From Nitrososphaerales archaeon TH5895 (GTDB lineage: Archaea; Thermoproteota; Nitrososphaeria; Nitrososphaerales; Nitrososphaeraceae), in assembly GCA_014523695.1 (NCBI GenBank), contig JAATVS010000177.1, forward strand, positions 1 to 15,662: a DNA stretch of 15,662 nucleotides. The letters are read 5' to 3'. Within the stretch, counting starts at the first letter, position 1, and every line of letters starts with the position of its first letter. The position numbers and the translations under genes were made by a program. Below are positions 3,756-15,662 of this stretch, in pieces. A model generated the notes under the pieces. That model was not told the origin of the DNA. It saw only the letters and a program-made list of their open reading frames with translations, and searched no databases.

Positions 3756-4168
3756 GGCTTTGCATGTAATGACAGATGGAGTTGAAATGGCAGAGTAGTT
3801 AACATAACAGCTGATTACAATATTGGAAGCTTTAATCCATACTAGTTCATTTAGCTCAAATTAGATTATGTGTTTACTCTAACTTACTGTATAACAAGTC
3901 TCATTTAACATACTCTTAATATTGAAGATCTGGTTCTACCACTAATCATTAATCCTATTGAAAAAATAATCGCATACTCAGAATGATAGAAGTTAAACAG
4001 ATTGGGCTTTGTGTCTCTTGTAGAGGACGGATAACTCGTGATTATGCTGTCGTGAGTAGCGGACGACCAAGACACTACTACCATAAATATTGTGCGATCA
4101 AACATAATATTATTTAGGTATCATTTACATCCATCAGTACGTTTAAATAATAGATAAATACTGGTTGA
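3756..4168. other. Intergenic stretch without a recognised gene
   Basis: About 410 bp of AT-rich DNA. A 66-codon frame on the minus strand (3905-4105) is not protein-like. No RNA gene or repeat was seen. Confidence 0.45.
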
Positions 4169-4594
4169 CTATGGAAATGGGATTAGCGAAGTTTTACTGT
4201 CACTAGACCCGCCTTCGCTATTGCTCGAATCACTATCAGCGTCTAGATTTTCTGAATTATCATTATCATCATTATCATCATTATCATCACTAACCTCATC
4301 AGTGGCATCGGGAACTGTTGTACCTCGATCTCCATCAGTCGTTTCATCTTCGAGATCTTTATTTGTGGGTGAGATATCTGGAATTATTAAAGGAGTTTCA
4401 GTATTATCAGACTGCGAATTATCCGTGGTTTCGGTATCAAAGGTAGATGACAATAATGATGATCTCTCATCACAATTAGTCAAATTAAGAGACGGGTCAC
4501 ACAAGATAGTGCTGCCATACAGTTGGACCGGCGACAGTAGACGTACTATTAAAAATAATGAAAAAATAAATAGAACAGAATTTAACACTCTCAA
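4169..4594 (-). CDS. Secreted acidic low-complexity protein
   Basis: Up to 141 aa. An N-terminal hydrophobic segment (VLNSVLFIFSLFLIVRLL) is a signal peptide or anchor. A short stretch with two cysteines (ILCDPSLNLTNC) follows. The rest is highly acidic, Ser/Thr-rich and disordered, with a DDNDDNDDND core from a 9-nt DNA repeat, ending KTSLIPFP. It is probably an extracellular or surface-attached polyanionic protein; cation binding is a guess. The start is TTG at 4594 (GTG at 4588 is the alternative); there is no ATG before the signal. The start follows the TAA of the upstream zinc-ribbon gene by 2 nt, so the two are probably co-transcribed and translationally coupled. Confidence 0.6.
   Translation of the reverse strand: MRVLNSVLFIFSLFLIVRLLSPVQLYGSTILCDPSLNLTNCDERSSLLSSTFDTETTDNSQSDNTETPLIIPDISPTNKDLEDETTDGDRGTTVPDATDEVSDDNDDNDDNDNSENLDADSDSSNSEGGSSDSKTSLIPFP
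4258..4289. repeat. 9-nt tandem repeat (atcattatc, about 3.5 copies)
   Basis: A short in-frame microsatellite within the acidic protein gene encoding the DDN triplets on the minus strand. The unit is a multiple of three, so copy-number change lengthens or shortens the acidic tract without breaking the frame. Confidence 0.7.
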
Positions 4595-4596
4595 AG

Positions 4597-4968
4597 TTAC
4601 TCTGACATTAAACGTTGAGCTTCATACTTGCTAGCAGATTGCTGTCTAACAACAACTTTGTTAGTTTTATAGAATTCCGTCTCCATTCCATTTGTTAGAC
4701 TAGATTCTATTCTAAATGATTCGTCAGTTGAGATAGGTATTAGCTCAGTGTTGTGAGAATTACAAACGTGACAGTCGAGAACATGTGACGAGGATGCTGA
4801 TACAGATTCTAAGTCATCAATGCCGAAATAAGATGCACACCAGTAACACAAATTACAAATCACAAAATAGATCTTATCGATAGGCTGCAAAATCTCATTA
4901 TCTTCAATAGTATTCGATGAGATCTTGGTTGTTTGCAGCAAGTCATACATTATATTAAGTCTGGCCAT
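4597..4968 (-). CDS. Zinc-ribbon protein with CNLCYWC and CHVC knuckles
   Basis: 123 aa, ATG start (MARLNIMYDLL). Residues 37-46 hold VICNLCYWC and residues 67-72 hold CHVCNSH, giving two paired cysteine knuckles that would bind one zinc ion. The C-terminal half (ELIPISTDESF...YKTNKVVVRQQ) is polar with no known domain. A TATA box (CCTATAAAAAC at about 5006-5016) sits some 40 nt upstream, implying a leader of about 15 nt. It is the first gene of a probable two-gene unit with the secreted acidic protein, from which it is separated by 2 nt. A regulatory or adaptor role is only a guess. Confidence 0.65.
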   Translation of the reverse strand: MARLNIMYDLLQTTKISSNTIEDNEILQPIDKIYFVICNLCYWCASYFGIDDLESVSASSSHVLDCHVCNSHNTELIPISTDESFRIESSLTNGMETEFYKTNKVVVRQQSASKYEAQRLMSE

Positions 4969-5126
4969 TTTTACTACATTCCTAGAGTCCTCTGATCGCA
5001 GCTATAGTTTTTATAGGTTATCGTGCGCTTAAATCAGTAGAAAATCAAATGTATATATTTGATGAAATCATGAAAATTTGATAAATTATAAGCTCTAGAA
5101 TAGCCAATCTCATTGGTTCATTAAAG

Positions 5127-5137
5127 TTTTTAATATT
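5127..5137 (+). promoter_or_regulatory. TATA box of the response regulator
   Basis: TTTTTAATATTT-like box centred about 27 nt before ATG 5159, the spacing for a leaderless transcript. It shows the N-terminal part of the broken gene still has a promoter. Confidence 0.5.
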
Positions 5138-5158
5138 TGGCTTAATAATTTTAAAATA

Positions 5159-5567
5159 ATGTTGAATCGTCTCGCGAGTTATTCTGATACAGAGAAAAAA
5201 ACAGTGATGATATGTGACGACGAGCGAGATTTGCTCGAATTATTTGGAAAAGCCCTCCAAAAAAAAATATAATATAATTCTAGTTGGTTCTGGCGAGGAT
5301 TGTATTGAAAAGTTCATTGATGAAAAGAGCCGGGGTAACAAAATACATCTCTTGTTATTAGATTACAGTTTGGGCAGTATGCATGGCGATACCGTTGCCC
5401 GTAAGATAAAAGAGTACAACGGAACAAAGATAATCTTGATTTCTGGATACGATTTGAATTACACGTTTGTCAAAGATTTAGAGGAGAATAAATACATAGC
5501 AAAATACATAGAAAAACCAATTTTCATAAATAGTCTAATTGAGCTAGTGGCAGATACAATAAGTTAG
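5159..5567 (+). pseudogene. Stand-alone response regulator (REC domain), frameshifted at an A9 run
   Basis: Two frames join into one receiver domain. The first (ATG 5159 to TAA 5270-5272) gives VMICDDERDLLELFGKALQ with the acidic pocket DD of REC domains. The second, one base over, continues YNIILVGSGEDCIEKFIDE, then LLLLDYSLGSMHGD with the phosphoacceptor Asp, ILISGYD with the Ser switch residue, and YIEKP with the conserved Lys. The break is in nine A's at 5259-5267; eight A's would give an intact 135-aa protein. There is no output domain, as in CheY-like regulators. A TATA box (TTTTTAATATTT, 5127-5137) about 27 nt before the ATG supports the start. It may be a true mutation, a sequencing error or a slippage site. 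Confidence 0.85.
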
Positions 5568-5712
5568 ACTGAAACGATCTTACGGAGCTATTGCAACAGG
5601 ATTTGTTCTAAACGTAAGTTTGTTGGTAATGAAACTTAGATATGACAAGCTGCAAAATAGTACCGTAAAAACAATATAAACTATTAACCAACCCTGGTGT
5701 GAAATCATCAAC

Positions 5713-6022
5713 TTAATCCAGTATTTCCGTAGGGCAGTAATTATCTGGTACAGTGCCTAAATAGCATGTTGATTCTGCTGCTGCCGAGGAAGCTTCGGCG
5801 CCGCTTGCCGCAGCTGCTGCTGCGCCCGGATCTCTGCCGGCTGCTGTTGCGGCTGACGTAGTTGAGCCAGCAGCGGCTGCGCAATACAATACTGTATAGA
5901 ATAACAAATGACGAGGTTATCTCCGAAATAAATACTAGTGAAGAAAATGTGATCGGTATCAAAAGATAGACGGCCATTAAGCGGTATGTCAGACGCTTTT
6001 GGTCGCCTACCCCGTATCGCAT
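5713..6022 (-). pseudogene. Small Ala-rich membrane/secreted protein with an apparent frameshift
   Basis: From ATG 6022 one frame gives a long hydrophobic segment (MAVYLLIPITFSSLVFISEI...SFVILYSIVL), a signal or membrane anchor. It then turns into Arg/Ser-rich sequence built almost wholly of G/C-ending codons. A second frame, open from 5907, gives AAAAGSTTSAATAAG, more Ala-rich sequence, then ESTCYLGTVPDNYCPTEILD, with about 36% G/C at third positions, as in the intact genes here. The simplest reading is one gene: anchor in the first frame, Ala-rich exported part with two cysteines in the second, and a one-base shift near 5885-5907. A TATA-like CTTTAAATC box at 6050-6058 supports transcription. 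If there is no shift, the 93-aa basic product is the alternative. Confidence 0.4.
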
Positions 6023-6084
6023 TGATTGAACAGTGTGGACTTTATGAGTGATTTAAAGATCCACCTGTTAGCAGCGTATTATAC

Positions 6085-6126
6085 TACAAATTATAAAACG
6101 GTATTAGAGATAGGTAGACGGCCATA
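6085..6126 (-). pseudogene. Decayed partial copy of the MAVYL signal segment
   Basis: ATGGCCGTCTACCT at 6125-6112 repeats the ATGGCCGTCTATCT start region at 5977-5964, and both continue to an ATACCG (LIP) segment. This copy reads MAVYLSLIPFYNL and stops. It looks like the remnant of a small tandem duplication of the gene next to it. Confidence 0.35.
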
Positions 6127-6505
6127 ATGAGACAATTGAGCTACAGCTGCCTACCTGTTGCTTTTTTGGAATACTAGCAGTTCCATTGTGACAGCAGACT
6201 GCCAGCTCCACTCTTTGTTCAATATAATATAAAAATGATGATCACAATATTGTCATTTTATGTTAGAAAAGGTTGAGGGGTTGACTAGACTTTTGGGCCT
6301 TACAATAAATTACTAATAATGGTAGTAGGTCAGATACATATCTATCGGCTACACTACTACCTACTAATTTGATACTGGATACAATACATCATATAATACA
6401 CGATAAATTCAAGTTCAATTCTAAGATAAGTCTGTAGGTCGTGCCATTTCCATAATCTTTAGAGATAAGTCGTCAAATAGCTTGTTGATTATGTAATGTA
6501 CAGCT
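6127..6505. other. Intergenic stretch without a recognised gene
   Basis: About 380 bp, AT-rich. An 8-bp inverted repeat (TAGTAGGT 6323-6330 / ACCTACTA 6359-6366) with a 28-nt loop is the only structure noticed and may be chance. Confidence 0.4.
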
Positions 6506-6832
6506 ATGAGTCAGCAGCGACAGCAGCAACTATTAAGAATGGAACTGACTGTTTCTCAAATCCTACGCGAATATGGGAAACAGTTCACGCAGATCACAGA
6601 TCAATATTCTGATGGACATAACGGAAGATGTGCTATAGGTGTCATGATGTCTTATTTTGGTTGGGATGGCACAGACGATTTTGATACAGCAAAAGTTTTA
6701 TTTGTTGCATTAGGTGAATTGAAACAAGCCGGTATCGATGAAGACTTACTGATAAACTTGAATGACTCTGGTTACTCATTTGATGAAATAGCTTATTATC
6801 TGGACAGAGTTGAATCACAAGTTACATATTGA
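6506..6832 (+). CDS. Hypothetical 108-aa soluble protein
   Basis: ATG start (MSQQRQQQLLRMELTVSQIL). A Gln-rich N-terminal tip is followed by a helix (SQILREYGKQFTQI), then a conserved-looking core HNGRCAIGVMMSYFGWDG, an acidic stretch and two further helices (TAKVLFVALGELKQAG and YSFDEIAYYLDRVES). The sequence is clearly coding in style, but I do not recognise a family. The GRCAIGV...YFGW segment with a single Cys is the best search handle. No membrane segment, zinc knuckle or catalytic motif is visible. It is isolated from its neighbours by several hundred bases on the left and about 170 on the right. Confidence 0.65.
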   Translation: MSQQRQQQLLRMELTVSQILREYGKQFTQITDQYSDGHNGRCAIGVMMSYFGWDGTDDFDTAKVLFVALGELKQAGIDEDLLINLNDSGYSFDEIAYYLDRVESQVTY

Positions 6833-6999
6833 GATATGTAAATACGCTATGATAGAGCCATGATTGGATTTACAATCAGTGAAATCATGATTGCGATAGC
6901 TCAAGAGTCGGCTGAATAGTAACAGTAGCCACAACGTTTAAAATTTAATTTACTCTAGCTATTATCTAACTATTCTTATTACCAGGTAGGCAGGCAGTT

Positions 7000-7566
7000 C
7001 TATGCGTAAACTTCTCTTTGTCTATTAACTGAAAACTCTGCCGCAGTTTCTCTTGCTGTGTTTGCGATGGTTTTTGCATTATCCACATTTATTCTTGAAA
7101 GCTCTTTTGTGTGTCGTTGTGCTCGTTCGAATGCATTTCTGAATGCATCAATGTTTCCAAATAATATATCGTTACTAATTCGGGTTGCTGCTGAAACATT
7201 TTCTGCAATATTGCTAACTGATCTTGCCCACAGTTCTGCTGGTACTCTTGGAGATAACCAATAATTGTACATTCTTTGCACATTTTCATAATATGGAACT
7301 ATAGAATCGTAGACGGAATTTATCACTGCTTTTTGAGTTTCAATGTAGTCTTCCACTATGTTATCAGTTGATTCTAATGCTTGCTCCTGATAATTCTTGA
7401 CGACATTAGTATATTGTGGGATCTGAGTTCTTGTTTCATTTATGGATTTCCGGATATTCTTTTTTGTTTCGTCTAATGATGCGTTTATTGATTCTTGTGT
7501 TGCACTCCTGGCTTGTTCAGCTACCCTATTGGCTGCTTCAACGACTTTTTCTTCCCGTTTTGACAT
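7000..7566 (-). CDS. Phasin-like coiled-coil protein
   Basis: 188 aa, almost wholly helical and charged: KREEKVVEAANRVAEQA at the start, repeated Ala/Gln/Asn/Glu heptads, a central YWLSPRVPAELWARSVSNI turn, and a second helical half to the end. Length, the lack of cysteines and the A/E/N-rich amphipathic helices fit phasins, which coat polyhydroxyalkanoate granules; these archaea are reported to carry PHA synthase genes. None is in this window, so the role rests on resemblance only, and another coiled-coil function is possible. The frame also has an ATG at 7572, but a TATA box (ATTATATAA at 7587-7595) is 25-26 nt before the ATG at 7566, favouring that start. Confidence 0.7.
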   Translation of the reverse strand: MSKREEKVVEAANRVAEQARSATQESINASLDETKKNIRKSINETRTQIPQYTNVVKNYQEQALESTDNIVEDYIETQKAVINSVYDSIVPYYENVQRMYNYWLSPRVPAELWARSVSNIAENVSAATRISNDILFGNIDAFRNAFERAQRHTKELSRINVDNAKTIANTARETAAEFSVNRQREVYA

Positions 7567-7586
7567 ATCCATCTTTTATCAACATA

Positions 7587-7595
7587 TTATATAAT
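7587..7595 (-). promoter_or_regulatory. TATA box of the phasin-like gene
   Basis: ATTATATAA on the minus strand, centred at about 7591, 25-26 nt before ATG 7566. It favours this ATG over the one two codons upstream. Confidence 0.5.
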
Positions 7596-7847
7596 TATTG
7601 ATGATGATATGTTAATGTACTACCCCAAATGTGTAATAAGATAGCAAACAGTGCCTGAAATAGTAAGAACCCAGCTGATTAGGCAAATCACTGTCAGAGC
7701 GTAATTGAATTATCTAATTTTATGCATCACCATTCATACCAAAACTCTGCTACAGCTTGACTATCAATATGATTCATTATTATAGCTGTTTGGACGCAGT
7801 AGAAATCATATCTTGGATTAATTTTTGTCAATAAAGTTTAGGCAGAG

Positions 7848-7856
7848 TTTATATAC
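7848..7856 (+). promoter_or_regulatory. TATA box without an obvious gene
   Basis: TTTATATAC is a good archaeal TATA box. Transcription would start near 7879, but no protein-like frame follows for more than 100 bp. A second TTTAAA box lies at 7930-7935, just before the inverted-repeat site. It may drive a non-coding RNA or be a relic. The flanking stretch 7596-7940 otherwise holds nothing recognised. Confidence 0.35.
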
Positions 7857-7940
7857 GGTAAGAGTTGCCGGACAGCGTCAGTTGAAATACCTTACCCCTA
7901 AACACATAAACCTGTATCGCAAAGAGAGCTTTAAACTTTT

Positions 7941-7969
7941 TGAACCCACTATAAGGTGGGCCCAAGGGT
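7941..7969. repeat. Inverted-repeat site, copy A (possible recombinase core site)
   Basis: TGAACCCAC (7941-7949), a 6-bp spacer TATAAG, then GTGGGCCCAAGGG (7956-7968). The arms are a 5-bp perfect inverted repeat that becomes 9 bp on the minus strand if two G-U pairs are allowed. The same arms recur, in the same orientation, at 10434-10462. Arms flanking a 6-7 bp spacer are the layout of tyrosine-recombinase core sites. The function is inferred. Confidence 0.6.
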
Positions 7970-7994
7970 GTGTGAACCATTTTTGACATAAATA

Positions 7995-8220
7995 TTGGGC
8001 TCAACAATTCATGCATATGGATCTAGATTTGGATCAGTAGGCCGTACCAAGGCACCACCGCAGATAGAGGGACGTTCGCCCTGTGTAGGACAGCGCCGTT
8101 TTGAGATACTATACCCATATCGGCTTGCAACTATTTGTCGTGTTTATCATCGTGTGTGTAAACAGTCGATGGCCTTAAAAGGAAAGATAGGCTTACCAGG
8201 ACAAGGCTTACCATAGCTTC
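7995..8220. other. GC-rich block: broken gene or structured RNA
   Basis: Bases 8041-8100 are about 63% G+C, far above the surroundings. The plus strand has a 73-codon open frame from TTG 7995 (GSTIHAYGSRFGSVGRT...), but it has no promoter at the right distance and no recognised motif. The minus strand reads YGKPCPGKPIFPFKAIDCL, then adjacent TGA and TAA stops, then TRQIVASRYGYSISKRRCP, TQGERPSICGGALVRPTD and PNLDPYA in the same frame. The latter is more protein-like and resembles a zinc-ribbon protein with CPTC changed to CPTQ, so a decayed gene is my preferred reading. A conserved RNA cannot be excluded. Confidence 0.35.
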
Positions 8221-8293
8221 TCTCTCAAGAATGGATATTCTATTTAGTACAATTGTTAATAATGTCAATGTATCTTTGAATGAAGTGCTTCTT

Positions 8294-8304
8294 AAAATAT
8301 ATTA
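8294..8304 (+). promoter_or_regulatory. TATA box of the multicopper oxidase gene
   Basis: AAATATATTA-like box about 29-31 nt before ATG 8330, fitting a leaderless or near-leaderless transcript. It favours ATG 8330 over the in-frame TTG at 8321. Confidence 0.45.
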
Positions 8305-8329
8305 ACGCCTATTATCATTATTGTTTATT

Positions 8330-9895
8330 ATGAAAAACATACAGGCTTACAATTCTTTTTTTAATGGTAAAAAAAGAACAACAGCAATTTCCTCTGTTCT
8401 CTTTATCATTCTGTTATCAAATATTACAACTACCACAATGTCCTTTGTTAAGGGTGAAAATATTGCATTAGCTCAATCTCAATCTGGCTCATCAGTATCA
8501 CCGATCTCAAATGATATGGGCAGAATCAATAATACTGTTGTCAATAAAATATCAGAGCAACAACAACAGTCAAACCAATTACCTTCATCATCCCAACAAC
8601 CAAAGACTCATGAATATACACTGATAGCAGAAGAAACTACGCTTGAAATAGCTCCTGGACTTCGGGTTGATGCTTGGACTTATAATGGTACGGTTCCCGG
8701 ACCTACTATAACAGCTACTGAAGGTGATAGAATGATAATTCATTTTATTAACAAGACACCTCTTCCTCATACGGTTCATTTGCATGGCGACCATCCTAGC
8801 CAACAAGACGGAGTATTTGAGATGGTGGGACCAAATGGAACATATACATACGATTTTGTAGCACAACCGGCTGGTGCTTTAGCATATCATTGTCATGTTC
8901 CACCGGTAATGCAGCATGTGAGAATGGGGTTGTATGGCGCATTTATCGTATATCCGAAAACTCCCTTACCGCCTGCAAGAGAATATGTACTTGTTAATGG
9001 AGAATATGATACTCAAAACCAGTTAAATCCGCTTCCGGAATACTTCATGTTCAACGGTTATACGGAACAATATCAGTTGCATCCCCTTCCTGCGAGGACT
9101 AACGAAACTGTAAGAATTTACCTGATTAATCTAGGTATGTCTCCCGCTTATGGCATGCACATACATGGAAGTCTCTTCAAAGTCTATCCTTCTGGAATAT
9201 TGGAGAATCCCACATTCAAAGTGCAGTCATGGGAGCTGGCATCAGGAAATACTGCGATATTGGAAGCAAAATGGCCATGGCCGGGCAGATTTACATTCCA
9301 TTATCATGGAATACCTGAGGAGAGAGGAGCAATGGGCTACTTCAATGTAACAAATGCTTCTCCTAATGCTACAGATGGACTGGATATTGCTATTACAAAA
9401 TCTATAAACATGAATGATTGGCAGATGAATTTGACAAAGAGCTTACAAAAGGCCGATCCTAATGGAAGGGTAACATCAGTGTCTTCAGGCACTAGCGAGG
9501 GACATCATGAAAGGATGATGGATGGCGGCGGAGGAGAAATGCCAATGGGAAAGGAACAAAAAGAAGGTACGTCTCAGTTAACTAATGCTAGTAATTCAAC
9601 ACAAGTGTCAATTGTAAATGGGGCAACTACCTTGAGCGACAAAGCATTCTCCCCGAATAATATGAAGGTAAAAGTTGGTAATACTATTGTTTGGACCAAT
9701 GATGACAGTACCATTCATACAGTCACATCAGGTTCACCTAATACCCCTGATGCAGGACAAGTATTCGATTCAGGCTTAACATCGCTTATATCACCATCTA
9801 AAACGTTTTCACACAAGTTTACTTCTCCAGGAGAATTTTCTTACTTTTGCAGATTACATCCTACTATGATAGGGGAAATAGAGGTAGTACGATAA
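8330..9895 (+). CDS. Two-domain multicopper oxidase fused to a C-terminal cupredoxin
   Basis: 521 aa, exported (hydrophobic 19-37, then AQSQS). Domain 1 (about 95-210): PHTVHLHGDH, HCH (187-189) and HVRMGLYG. Domain 2 (about 220-345): HIH (277-279) and HYH (324-326). Four HxH motifs are the ligand set of a trinuclear copper cluster, so this is a laccase-like oxidase; NirK has an Asp where His150 lies here. A type 1 copper site is present only in domain 1 (His147, Cys188, His196) with Leu201 at the usual Met axial position; domain 2 lost its own (Tyr325 replaces Cys). After a His/Met/Gly-rich linker (HHERMMDGGGGEMPMG), a plastocyanin-like domain (about 425-521) has a full type 1 site: His463, Cys507, His510, Met513. 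It probably passes electrons to or from the oxidase outside the membrane. The substrate is unknown; roles in ammonia-oxidation electron flow or copper handling are possible. Confidence 0.93.
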   Translation: MKNIQAYNSFFNGKKRTTAISSVLFIILLSNITTTTMSFVKGENIALAQSQSGSSVSPISNDMGRINNTVVNKISEQQQQSNQLPSSSQQPKTHEYTLIAEETTLEIAPGLRVDAWTYNGTVPGPTITATEGDRMIIHFINKTPLPHTVHLHGDHPSQQDGVFEMVGPNGTYTYDFVAQPAGALAYHCHVPPVMQHVRMGLYGAFIVYPKTPLPPAREYVLVNGEYDTQNQLNPLPEYFMFNGYTEQYQLHPLPARTNETVRIYLINLGMSPAYGMHIHGSLFKVYPSGILENPTFKVQSWELASGNTAILEAKWPWPGRFTFHYHGIPEERGAMGYFNVTNASPNATDGLDIAITKSINMNDWQMNLTKSLQKADPNGRVTSVSSGTSEGHHERMMDGGGGEMPMGKEQKEGTSQLTNASNSTQVSIVNGATTLSDKAFSPNNMKVKVGNTIVWTNDDSTIHTVTSGSPNTPDAGQVFDSGLTSLISPSKTFSHKFTSPGEFSYFCRLHPTMIGEIEVVR

Positions 9896-9967
9896 GTGCT
9901 CAGGTAACTCCGCTTTACTAGTAATACTGTTTACGATTAGAGTATTGTTTGATACTTCTCCTTGATA

Positions 9968-10360
9968 TCAGCAAGCAGTACAAGTGTAGTTCAAAAAGCT
10001 CAAAAAGCATTTGGAGAGGTCCAAATTGCAATTATGTAACCACCTAAAAAAATGCTTAATGCGGACCAGATAGTCATTCCATGTCGTAATCCATCGCTCC
10101 TCAGGGTCCTCCGAAATTGATCTAATTTTCTTATCCAGAAATTTGGTTACTTGTTCTTTAGTGGATATTTGATAAAAAGTTATTTCATATCCTATGAACT
10201 CAGCAAATGCAATAACGGCTTTCAGGTTGTTATTCTGGTGTCTTTCGGAGGTAGCGTTGCCTTTCATATAAGAATGGAAATCTTCGATTAACTTTGAATT
10301 CATAGAATTTGGCACTCTGTCATAAATATGCCTGACCGTCGTGGAAAGCGTGGTTGGCAT
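9968..10360 (-). pseudogene. Tyrosine recombinase (integrase) N-terminal fragment
   Basis: The frame gives 130 aa: VRHIYDRVPNSMNSKLIEDF, HSYMKGNATSERHQNNNLKA, VIAFAEFIG, ITTWNDYLVRIKHFFRWLHN. This is the SAM-like core-binding domain of phage/archaeal integrases, with the RHQNNNLKAVIAFAEFIG helix and the W-NDYL-R-K-FFRWL helix. The catalytic domain with the R...HxxR...Y residues is absent. After RWLHN the product turns into unrelated sequence and stops, while another frame reads WTSPNAF where intact relatives have W-x-TP-x-F, so a frameshift plus deletion is likely. The start is ATG 10360, preceded by AAAGGAGGTG with 6-nt spacing, a strong Shine-Dalgarno sequence unlike the leaderless neighbours. 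It ends 73 bp from the oxidase stop and begins about 75 bp from copy B of the inverted-repeat site. Confidence 0.8.
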
Positions 10361-10376
10361 CAGCACCACCTCCTTT
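10361..10376 (-). promoter_or_regulatory. Shine-Dalgarno sequence of the integrase fragment
   Basis: AAAGGAGGTG on the minus strand lies 6 nt before ATG 10360. It selects this ATG over the two upstream in-frame GTG codons, and contrasts with the leaderless style elsewhere in the window. Confidence 0.65.
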
Positions 10377-10433
10377 CACGGCCATTGTTCGTCATTGTGT
10401 ATGTTGTCAGTATCTAAGGTCTTCAGAAGTATA

Positions 10434-10462
10434 TGAACCCACGTAGTAAGTGGGCCCAAGGG
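10434..10462. repeat. Inverted-repeat site, copy B (possible recombinase core site)
   Basis: TGAACCCAC (10434-10442), a 7-bp spacer GTAGTAA, then GTGGGCCCAAGGG (10450-10462). All 22 arm bases match copy A at 7941-7968; only the spacer differs in sequence and length. On the minus strand it lies about 75 nt upstream of the integrase fragment start, next to a TATA-like CATATAC. It could be a recombination site, an operator for the integrase promoter, or a repeat carried by this element family. Confidence 0.6.
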
Positions 10463-10779
10463 GGTTTGGCAAGACTTTAACGTGTGTTAAAAAATTCACG
10501 AGGAGATTTGATCAATGTGACTTCAATTTATCTTTCCAATATTGCCGACACAGGTAACACGTGATTCTTCAAAATCCCATAGTGCCATTTAGTATTTTGG
10601 AAGAGATGGTTCCTAGATTTCTGACATACTACTCTATGACTAAGGAAGCCTTGGCAATAGTTTAGGTATTATATAATTTACTCGAAACTAGAATTAACTT
10701 CGTATAAATTATACAATTTAATTTCATTTTGTTTGTCTAGTCAAACCATAAATCCCGTTTCATTACTTTAATCGGTATT
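10463..10779. other. Intergenic stretch without a recognised gene
   Basis: About 320 bp of AT-rich DNA. A GGAG followed by GATCAATGTGA gives a start codon directly followed by a stop, so no gene. No RNA or repeat was noticed apart from the adjoining copy B. Confidence 0.45.
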
Positions 10780-14085: not shown

Positions 14086-15662
14086 CTATTCATCCGATCG
14101 TAGACTTAACGATACCATATTGGTAGTATTTTGAAGCAGGTTCTTCACATACAGTAATGCTTCTCGGTCACTATCTAGATCTCCAGTAAAATAGCCGTGG
14201 CCATTGCCGTCACATTCAGTAGTTAACTGAGAGCCCAGACGGATAAGCTCCGAGCGTATCTCAGATGGTGGTGCAAGAGGATTATAGAGTTTAAATAGTG
14301 CAGCAGCTCCTGCAACATGAGGTGCTGCTTGGCTAGTACCAGAGATTTGCGCATATGCACCATCAATTGATGTTGAATTTATTTTTACACCAGGGGCTGC
14401 TATATCTATAACATCACCATAATTACTGAACGAAGCAAATGTATCATCAAGTTCCTTACTCGGTCTACCATCTGCTGCAACATAGCTAATTTTTCCACTT
14501 TGTCCGCATTTACCGTCACTATCTGACATAGCTGAAACAGTTATTACGTCAGGATGGCTGACCATAAGAAGTGGGCCAGCATCCATGTGACTATTCCCAG
14601 CCGCCACTACCAAGGTAACATTCTTTTTTACCGTTTCATCTATCATTTGGAAGACGGCTTCTTTTAGCTCGTTGGATATACATAGGCAGCCGAGGCTTAG
14701 ATTGACGACGTCTATTTTGTCAGCATTAGTTTGTACATACTTCAGAGCGCTCAAAAGGCTGGTAACTGAACCCTCGCATATCCCTTTGCTTGGATTAAAT
14801 TCAAGAGCTTTAACAGCCCATAACCTTGCACCTGGGGCTACTCCTGCGATCCCAATACCATTGTCCTTCGCTGCTGCTATTCCAGCTACGTGAGTGCCGT
14901 GACCACCACAGCGAATATCATCATCCGCGGTGATAGTATTTGGAACAACTGTTGTGTTTCGAAATATATTAAGTTCTGGATTGTCAAGATCTATGCCGCT
15001 GTCTATGATTGCTATATCTATGTCTATATTACCGATGCTGCCAGATTCGCTGGCCATTCCCATTTTGACAAGACCACCGTCAACTCTTTTGATACCGTTG
15101 GGCACAGCATCTCCGAATGCTACAATAGTCTGATCTTGCTCTAAAACTCCTATCCGTGAATCATTTTCAAGAATCGTAAGAACGTTGCCAAGAATCTCTT
15201 CATTAGGAGCTCTTATTGCGAAACCTGGGATTATTTTCTCATAGACGTCAAGCACTTCTACCCCTAAATTCTTGACTTTAGCCGTCAGATCCTGAAGTGA
15301 ACTTAAAGAAGCCTCATGTTTATCTGCAAAATAATTCTTGAGCAGTACTAGATATTGATTGGGTATTTTTTCTCCTCCTAGTCTTGTGTCAACTATGTCT
15401 ATGCATTCATCGTCCTCTGGGCTGTCTTTGCAGTAAATTTCTTCTGGCTGATCGGGTGAAGGAGTATCAGGATCTATAGGAACAACTTTTGGTTGATCTG
15501 GTGAAGGAGTATCAGGATCTATAGGTTCTACGCAGCCATCGGATTGTGGGTCTACCTTACATGGATCGCAGCCATCGGATTGTGGGTCTACCTTACATGG
15601 ATCGCAGCCATCGGATTGTGGGTCTACCTTACATGGATCGCAGCCATCGGATTGTGGGTCTA
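14086..15662 (-). CDS. Subtilisin-like serine protease (S8), N-terminus outside window
   Basis: The frame stays open from the stop at 14086-14088 to the window edge (at least 525 codons). From the N-terminal side: Cys-rich tandem repeats (DPCKVDPQSDGC), two Pro/Asp-rich repeats (PIDPDTPSPDQP), an I9-type propeptide (IPNQYLVLLKNYF...VIDVYEK-like strand...IIPGFAIRAP), then the S8 catalytic domain. The triad is visible: Asp in IAIIDSGIDL (codon 15001-15003), His in GGHGTHVAGIAAA (14899-14901), Ser in SGTSQAAPHVAGAAAL (14332-14334); the oxyanion Asn is in VVAAGNSHMDAG (14593-14595). The catalytic domain appears complete. It is presumably exported and self-processed; the signal peptide would lie beyond 15662. 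It is followed 7 bp later by the TPR pseudogene. Confidence 0.93.
   Translation of the reverse strand, partial: DPQSDGCDPCKVDPQSDGCDPCKVDPQSDGCDPCKVDPQSDGCVEPIDPDTPSPDQPKVVPIDPDTPSPDQPEEIYCKDSPEDDECIDIVDTRLGGEKIPNQYLVLLKNYFADKHEASLSSLQDLTAKVKNLGVEVLDVYEKIIPGFAIRAPNEEILGNVLTILENDSRIGVLEQDQTIVAFGDAVPNGIKRVDGGLVKMGMASESGSIGNIDIDIAIIDSGIDLDNPELNIFRNTTVVPNTITADDDIRCGGHGTHVAGIAAAKDNGIGIAGVAPGARLWAVKALEFNPSKGICEGSVTSLLSALKYVQTNADKIDVVNLSLGCLCISNELKEAVFQMIDETVKKNVTLVVAAGNSHMDAGPLLMVSHPDVITVSAMSDSDGKCGQSGKISYVAADGRPSKELDDTFASFSNYGDVIDIAAPGVKINSTSIDGAYAQISGTSQAAPHVAGAAALFKLYNPLAPPSEIRSELIRLGSQLTTECDGNGHGYFTGDLDSDREALLYVKNLLQNTTNMVSLSLRSDE
15449..15525. repeat. 45-nt period repeat, two copies
   Basis: A 32-bp segment at 15449-15480 recurs at 15494-15525 with one mismatch. 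In the protease frame it encodes PIDPDTPSPDQP, a Pro/Asp-rich linker between the Cys-rich repeats and the propeptide. Confidence 0.85.
15532..15662. repeat. 36-nt perfect tandem repeat, at least 3.6 copies
   Basis: The unit starting gcagccatcggattgtg repeats at 15532, 15568, 15604 and 15640 without a mismatch and runs off the window. It is in frame with the protease and encodes DPCKVDPQSDGC per unit. Perfect identity points to recent expansion; the total copy number is unknown. Confidence 0.95.

Follow-up and report, generated by a model that had tools for sequence, protein, structure and literature searches.

Two repeat sites in a soil Nitrososphaeraceae contig as probable junctions of stacked integrative elements targeting a tRNA(CAT) 3′ end

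The two repeat sites in the 15,662-nucleotide stretch of Nitrososphaerales archaeon TH5895 DNA analysed here (the window) are very probably junctions left by stacked integrative elements that targeted the 3′ end of a tRNA(CAT) gene through putative integrase action. Observed directly are the tRNA identity of the core of these sites, the linkage of integrases to one side of it, a common orientation, the shuffling of flanks across it and an end of homology at the tRNA gene. Counted against this reading are a window contig without a tRNA gene, a mismatch between the two sites right of the core, integrase-less cores (8 of 24), the differing spacers of left-end class L8, the presence of the right ends b, c and d at other cores and the lack of an integrase match at five of eight tRNA loci in the wider family. 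The integrases would be the actors of both integration and excision.

The repeat consists of TGAACCCAC followed after 6 or 7 bp by GTGGGCCCAAGGG and occurs twice on the plus strand, at 7941-7968 (copy A, spacer TATAAG, 6 bp) and 10434-10462 (copy B, spacer GTAGTAA, 7 bp). All 22 arm bases are identical and the start-to-start distance is 2493 bp, as a preliminary description of this DNA had reported. No third pair is present in the window with arms 4–9 bp apart allowed, and 200 dinucleotide shuffles of the window yielded no match to the motif. The inverted-repeat arms are imperfect, TGAACCCAC agreeing by eye with the reverse complement of GTGGGCCCA at seven of nine bases, and just right of the 13-mer copy A reads TGTG and copy B GGTT. 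The genome that contains the window (3.88 Mb, 719 contigs) has one further copy of the full motif, and the motif is found in four of five congeneric genomes, the window's own counted in, which bears out the earlier suggestion of an array of related sites.

The right arm GTGGGCCCAAGGG is the 3′ end, on the reverse strand, of a tRNA(CAT) gene, as identified by ARAGORN and Rfam in relatives, and takes in a portion of the T stem and, beyond it, the acceptor strand, the discriminator and one more base. In loci L004 and L006 it extends into a longer conserved stretch that ARAGORN and Rfam assign to tRNA(CAT) on the other strand, and an intact tRNA gene ending in the same 13-mer is present in L004, L006, L050, L056 and L066. 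ARAGORN labels the gene tRNA-Met, with Met or Ile both possible. The window alone matches no Rfam family at gathering score and there is no tRNA gene on its contig, so the tRNA origin of the right arm is visible only in relatives; the window's genome has an intact tRNA(CAT) gene on a different contig (G000:C220). The 13-mer occurs in 19 of 70 genomes of the family and its reversed control in none of the 70, although it was the search key and its conservation is therefore not itself evidence. A tRNA(CAT) ends at the 13-mer in eight of 18 scanned loci outside the genus, and among the named records that carry the extended pattern are those of Nitrososphaeraceae archaeon Dino_bin45 and of the Nitrososphaerales archaea TH526 and TH5896. 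The preliminary description had held that arms belonging to a conserved RNA gene would speak against recombination. This applies to the right arm only and favours integration instead, because tRNA 3′ ends are standard integration targets. A conserved RNA spanning the whole 28–29 bp motif was rejected, since the right arm alone is tRNA.

Integrase sequence adjoins the core on one side. The five congeneric genomes hold 24 exact 13-mers (7, 10, 2, 5 and 0), and tblastn with the group's integrases, over at most 1600 bp per side, located integrase sequence left of 16 and right of none, always reading away from the core; five of the 16 positive loci supplied queries, and flanks were shorter where contigs end (382-684 bp left of five sites, 127-1290 bp right of five). 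At the other eight cores the same search detected none on the left or the right. Full-length, stop-free integrases stand at all three tRNA-linked cores compared with one of the 21 others, of which two are truncated by contig ends. In the wider family an integrase was recovered with these queries at three of eight tRNA-bearing loci, and the remaining five may be empty or hold other families.

Where the preliminary description proposed a single recombinase family, at least three divergent families adjoin the same core. Family 1 (485 aa in L056, 444 aa in L050) has members 61% identical, family 2 is represented by 401 aa in L066, and family 3, with 441 aa in G001:C33, is 31% identical to family 2; a related type is present in L063. 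These proteins are assigned to the tyrosine-recombinase family by profile similarity of uneven strength. The L066 integrase matches Pfam PF00589 at 30.8 bits, above the cut-off of 27.1, and L050 at 18.7 bits, below it; L056 has no Pfam match and a weak NCBIfam XerA match (28.8 bits, cut-off 220), and family-1 relatives carry the source name integrase/recombinase XerD. A search by sequence for solved structures of the family-1 integrase returned none at E up to 0.1. Left ends resembling those of family 3 (GGGCCTAAATAAAGGGACAAGATTGA type) also lie directly behind L204 (tRNA-Arg gcg) and L215 (tRNA-Lys ctt) in G001, with integrase remnants in L215 and none found in L204, and this one end type would thus have several tRNA targets.

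Grouped by left and right flank, with thresholds set by the analyst, the 24 sites form 17 combinations across the 13-mer. On the left, the spacer follows the flank: GTAGTRR in all four family-1 ends, ATTGAC in all three family-3 ends and TTTAAA in six of seven family-2 ends, copy A being the sole exception, while left-end class L8 comprises two sites with different spacers. On the right, the core is followed by the tRNA gene at three sites, by end b at ten, c at five, d at four and by single types at two. Exchange, and presumably its cut positions, thus appear to fall inside the 13-mer or directly at its right border. As the 6-7 bp spacer mostly travels with the left flank, it would not serve for exchange. 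The proposal that attachment-like sites of a tyrosine recombinase bracket other genes is retained, with the shared core moved to the right arm, whereas the earlier argument that differing spacers rule out an attL/attR pair fails. With exchange in the tRNA-derived arm such differences carry no weight, and TATAAG versus GTAGTAA would say only that the left-hand elements differ in family. Copies A and B do differ right of the 13-mer, so they fall short of a perfectly matched attL/attR pair.

Right ends b, c and d also adjoin cores other than this tRNA end. Loci with these ends at unrelated cores are L171, L173, L180, L184-L187, L189-L191 and L194; L164 and L168; and L158. Other tRNA genes were rejected as the source of 17 such cores, none giving a full match in a test against G001 that covered the loci for 30 of its 35 tRNA matches. 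The last 10 bases of one of these cores are also those of the tRNA(CAT) end; the 10-base tails of three others match two loci away from a tRNA 3′ end.

Sites that share a sequence also share an orientation, as found in 13 of 13 sequences with at least two sites among 70 scanned for exact cores and for right-end motifs with up to 3 mismatches (5 for end c), although L045 and L060 each rest partly on a weak match and some of the cores differ from the tRNA(CAT) end. When matching is relaxed to 4 mismatches, opposite-strand matches also appear, which are taken as chance. The core is directly repeated at both ends of a segment not only at A and B, which have the same orientation, but also in two relatives where one member of the pair lies at a tRNA: in G001:C33 two cores of like orientation lie 35 kb apart, one of them at an intact tRNA, and a 2.83-Mb contig of G031 has two same-orientation cores 7.8 kb apart, one at the tRNA. 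Homology between G001 and G003 ends at the tRNA: the sequence on its 5′ side and the complete tRNA are common to both (96.6% over 117 bp), up to one base behind the tRNA, the next 50 bases being 38% identical when compared ungapped; three of the same 5′ neighbours adjoin the tRNA in G031. These comparisons draw on fragmented drafts and on related genomes, which are not independent samples.

Several other readings of the repeat were weighed against these patterns. The sites might instead be built from recombinase-binding arms, TGAACCCAC and GTGGG, around a 6-7 bp spacer serving as the exchange region of one recombinase family. The partial inversion of the arms (7/9) agrees with such a design, the left motif TGAACCCA recurs by eye in several left-end types and may well bind integrase, and the L8 spacer differs between similar left flanks as exchange left of the spacer would give. 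Yet at 13 of 14 family-1, -2 and -3 sites the spacer stays with the left flank while the right side varies (tRNA, b, c, d), and family-3 ends reach the same core without TGAACCCAC, which makes this arrangement improbable. A role for the TGAACCCAC-spacer-GTGGG dyad as an operator or promoter element of integrase genes, rather than as a recombination site, is a little less probable again. Its position just upstream of integrase starts that read away from it is what such an element would require, but the right arm lies within an intact tRNA gene in relatives and the far-side flanks are exchanged. The left part of the dyad may nevertheless have a double role, regulatory as well as in recombination.

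The least probable of these alternatives is that the shuffled flanks reflect assembly chimaeras, or homologous recombination at a dispersed repeat without an integrase. The assemblies are drafts and several cores lie close to contig ends, which speaks for this reading. However, 13 bp is too short to join contigs assembled with long words (k141 appears in the contig names of two relatives, and the assembler used for the window may differ), and the 2.83-Mb contig of G031 likewise has two same-orientation cores, one at the tRNA. A 13-bp repeat is also too short to drive homologous recombination.

Integration of stacked elements at the tRNA end, the reading we favour, suggests the following mechanism. 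An element circle would carry its integrase, then TGAACCCA and the spacer, the 13-bp copy of the tRNA 3′ end and the right end, and its tyrosine integrase would recombine the 13 bp with the tRNA gene. Integration would restore the tRNA beside the integrase end and leave a 13-bp tRNA scar at the far end. The restored tRNA would then be open to a new insertion, giving a head-to-tail stack in which older elements decay away from the tRNA. The window would accordingly present a family-2 left end, core A, an element running from end b through the oxidase gene to a family-1 stump and left end, core B, and then end d of a third element.

The left end of the neighbouring element (type ii, integrase family 2; 7851-7955, plus strand) includes a degraded minus-strand integrase start, and within it lie the TGAACCCAC of copy A (7941-7949) and the spacer TATAAG (7950-7955). 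Its DNA is 80% identical to G001:C343:277-431 and 77% to G000:C361 and aligns with five family-2 ends in MAFFT. A protein-level search (tblastn) gave no integrase match left of copy A, and the family-2 start there comes from the DNA alignment. The recombinase remnant that the preliminary description had placed at copy B is thus joined by one at copy A.

Core A (7956-7968, plus strand) is an exact 13-mer copy of the reverse-strand tRNA(CAT) 3′ end and is followed by right end b of the A-B element (7969-8004, plus strand), which is also found at many more places in the five congeneric genomes. The inner stretch that follows (8005-8280, no strand assigned) is partly GC-richer; the GC-rich block described earlier is real and short, with 59% GC at 8040-8110 and 47% at 8005-8220, the window as a whole having 38%. 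Positions 7967-8090 have 78% identity to sequence following the same right end in G003:C60, and otherwise 8005-8280 has no relative among the fetched loci apart from copies of the window itself and a short segment at the edge of the oxidase gene. Beyond that gene lies the minus-strand remnant of a family-1 tyrosine integrase, a stump limited to the N-terminal part (9968-10369). The stump has no Pfam or NCBIfam match of its own, and its identification as a recombinase fragment was confirmed by tblastn, at 82% identity over 123 residues to residues 16-138 of the 485-aa tRNA-adjoining G001 integrase. Its DNA is 80% identical to G001:C33:4605-5028 and the similarity continues to 10449, the end of the family-1 left-end tip (10434-10449, plus strand) formed by TGAACCCAC and the spacer GTAGTAA. 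Core B (10450-10462, plus strand), again an exact 13-mer copy, is followed by right end d of the next element (10463-10540, plus strand), whose first 37-78 bases have 12 further matches, spread over four of the five congeneric genomes.

The junction of family-1 left end, core and right end b recurs at two of the 24 sites (L053, L063), as expected if this left end and end b belong to one element type. The A-B unit (7956-10462) is therefore most simply and most likely one family-1 element of 2.5 kb that has lost its middle and would not be mobile by itself. Its multicopper oxidase gene with a C-terminal cupredoxin domain (8330-9895, plus strand) is complete at 521 aa from its ATG, as previously described, and matches Pfam Cu-oxidase_3, Cu-oxidase_2 and Copper-bind above cut-off. 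The best NCBIfam match, copper nitrite reductase TIGR02376, reaches 123 bits against a cut-off of 296 and so does not fix the substrate. Relatives in G004:C70 (87%) and G003:C182 (77%) are alike only in the gene and its near edges, which fits a moved gene, and the oxidase may have arrived as cargo of the element. Multicopper oxidases are reported to be common cargo of thaumarchaeal elements (PMC6563490).

Much of this agrees with known systems. In the thaumarchaeal integrated elements with XerC/D-type integrases, as described in the account consulted (PMC6563490), tRNA genes are the most frequent target, accounting for 39 of 68 mapped cases and used with a single exception on the tRNA 3′ side, att sites are short (median 17 bp), and re-use of one site in arrays or tandem insertion is known for archaeal and bacterial elements. 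The elements here would share the tRNA 3′ target, short att, multicopper oxidase cargo and tandem insertion, and differ from that account in the tRNA(CAT) site and in several integrase families using one 13-bp core with interchangeable ends (PMC6563490). As in Type II (pNOB8-like, lambda-like) archaeal integrases, the gene lies unsplit beside a restored tRNA; the core of 13-17 bp contrasts with the 40-50 bp of Sulfolobales pNOB8 integrases, and unlike Type II integrases in the account consulted those here match Pfam Phage_integrase weakly or not at all (PMC8371274). The core at the tRNA 3′ end and a whole adjoining integrase, as in type II, are present in relatives, whereas the window itself has only the stump. 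An SSV-type (suicidal) integrase element was rejected, the full-length integrases beginning unsplit beside the core. An integron cassette array was likewise rejected, NCBIfam recognising no integron integrase among four integrases and one oxidase; L066 alone touches the integron-integrase model (26.2 bits, cut-off 265).

A pNOB8-like element of Caldiarchaeum also integrated at a tRNA gene, leaving tRNA fragments and an insert within a tRNA, there a 5′ fragment of tRNA-Thr and here tRNA(CAT) 3′-end scars and two T-arm-interrupted copies (as far as described in PMC3293823). These two copies, L045:2479-2575 (G004) and L046:10520-10720 (G003), have a right-end-b-like stretch (TTTGAACCAAATTTGACGCAATTCAAGGC...) inside the T arm. 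Stem mismatches are seen by eye in the G004 copy, and the one in G003 is without its 5′ end, so that both look like pseudogenes, and they may bear on how tRNA insertions arise.

A literature search covering listings and selected passages returned no description of this tRNA(CAT) array. Most likely the process is already known and the array is a rich new example rather than a new kind of system. The broader proposal that the tRNA(CAT) 3′ end is a shared dock in soil Nitrososphaeraceae, used by a number of divergent integrase families that can freely swap ends across the 13-bp core, is one we offer tentatively and regard as doubtful; long, time-ordered stacks would reshuffle ends and cargo, and integrase-less remnants such as the 2.5-kb unit could be moved by another element's enzyme. 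Reading the sites as junctions turns an unexplained repeat into an insertion record that accounts for how a copper oxidase gene may have come to lie beside an integrase stump. The 13-mer also offers an easy way to look for concealed element borders in the genomes of soil archaea, and the divergent integrases that apparently share one target form a natural set for studying what determines target choice among archaeal tyrosine recombinases.

A viral origin was rejected on searches of IMG/VR. There the 13-mer with tRNA or right-end-b neighbours has no exact match, and three pattern stretches for the family-1 integrase yielded no confirmed relative. An exact 17-base piece of right end b is present in three IMG/VR contigs (L226, L227, L228). 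The 35-kb tRNA-adjoining element of G001 shows no phage or conjugation family by Pfam in 10 of its larger ORFs, and encodes an astacin-type peptidase and a PatG-domain protein (L057:6427-7254, L057:9500-10435). Elsewhere in the window, positions 4100-7600 have at least 12-53 matches in each of the five congeneric genomes. These form blocks around the ORFs at 4597-4968, 5214-5567, 6506-6832 and 7000-7572, which appear to be large paralogous families, one with a predicted response-regulator domain. At 14086-15660 a Subtilase-family protein runs off the contig end and carries DPQSDGCDPCKV repeats in its N-terminal part.
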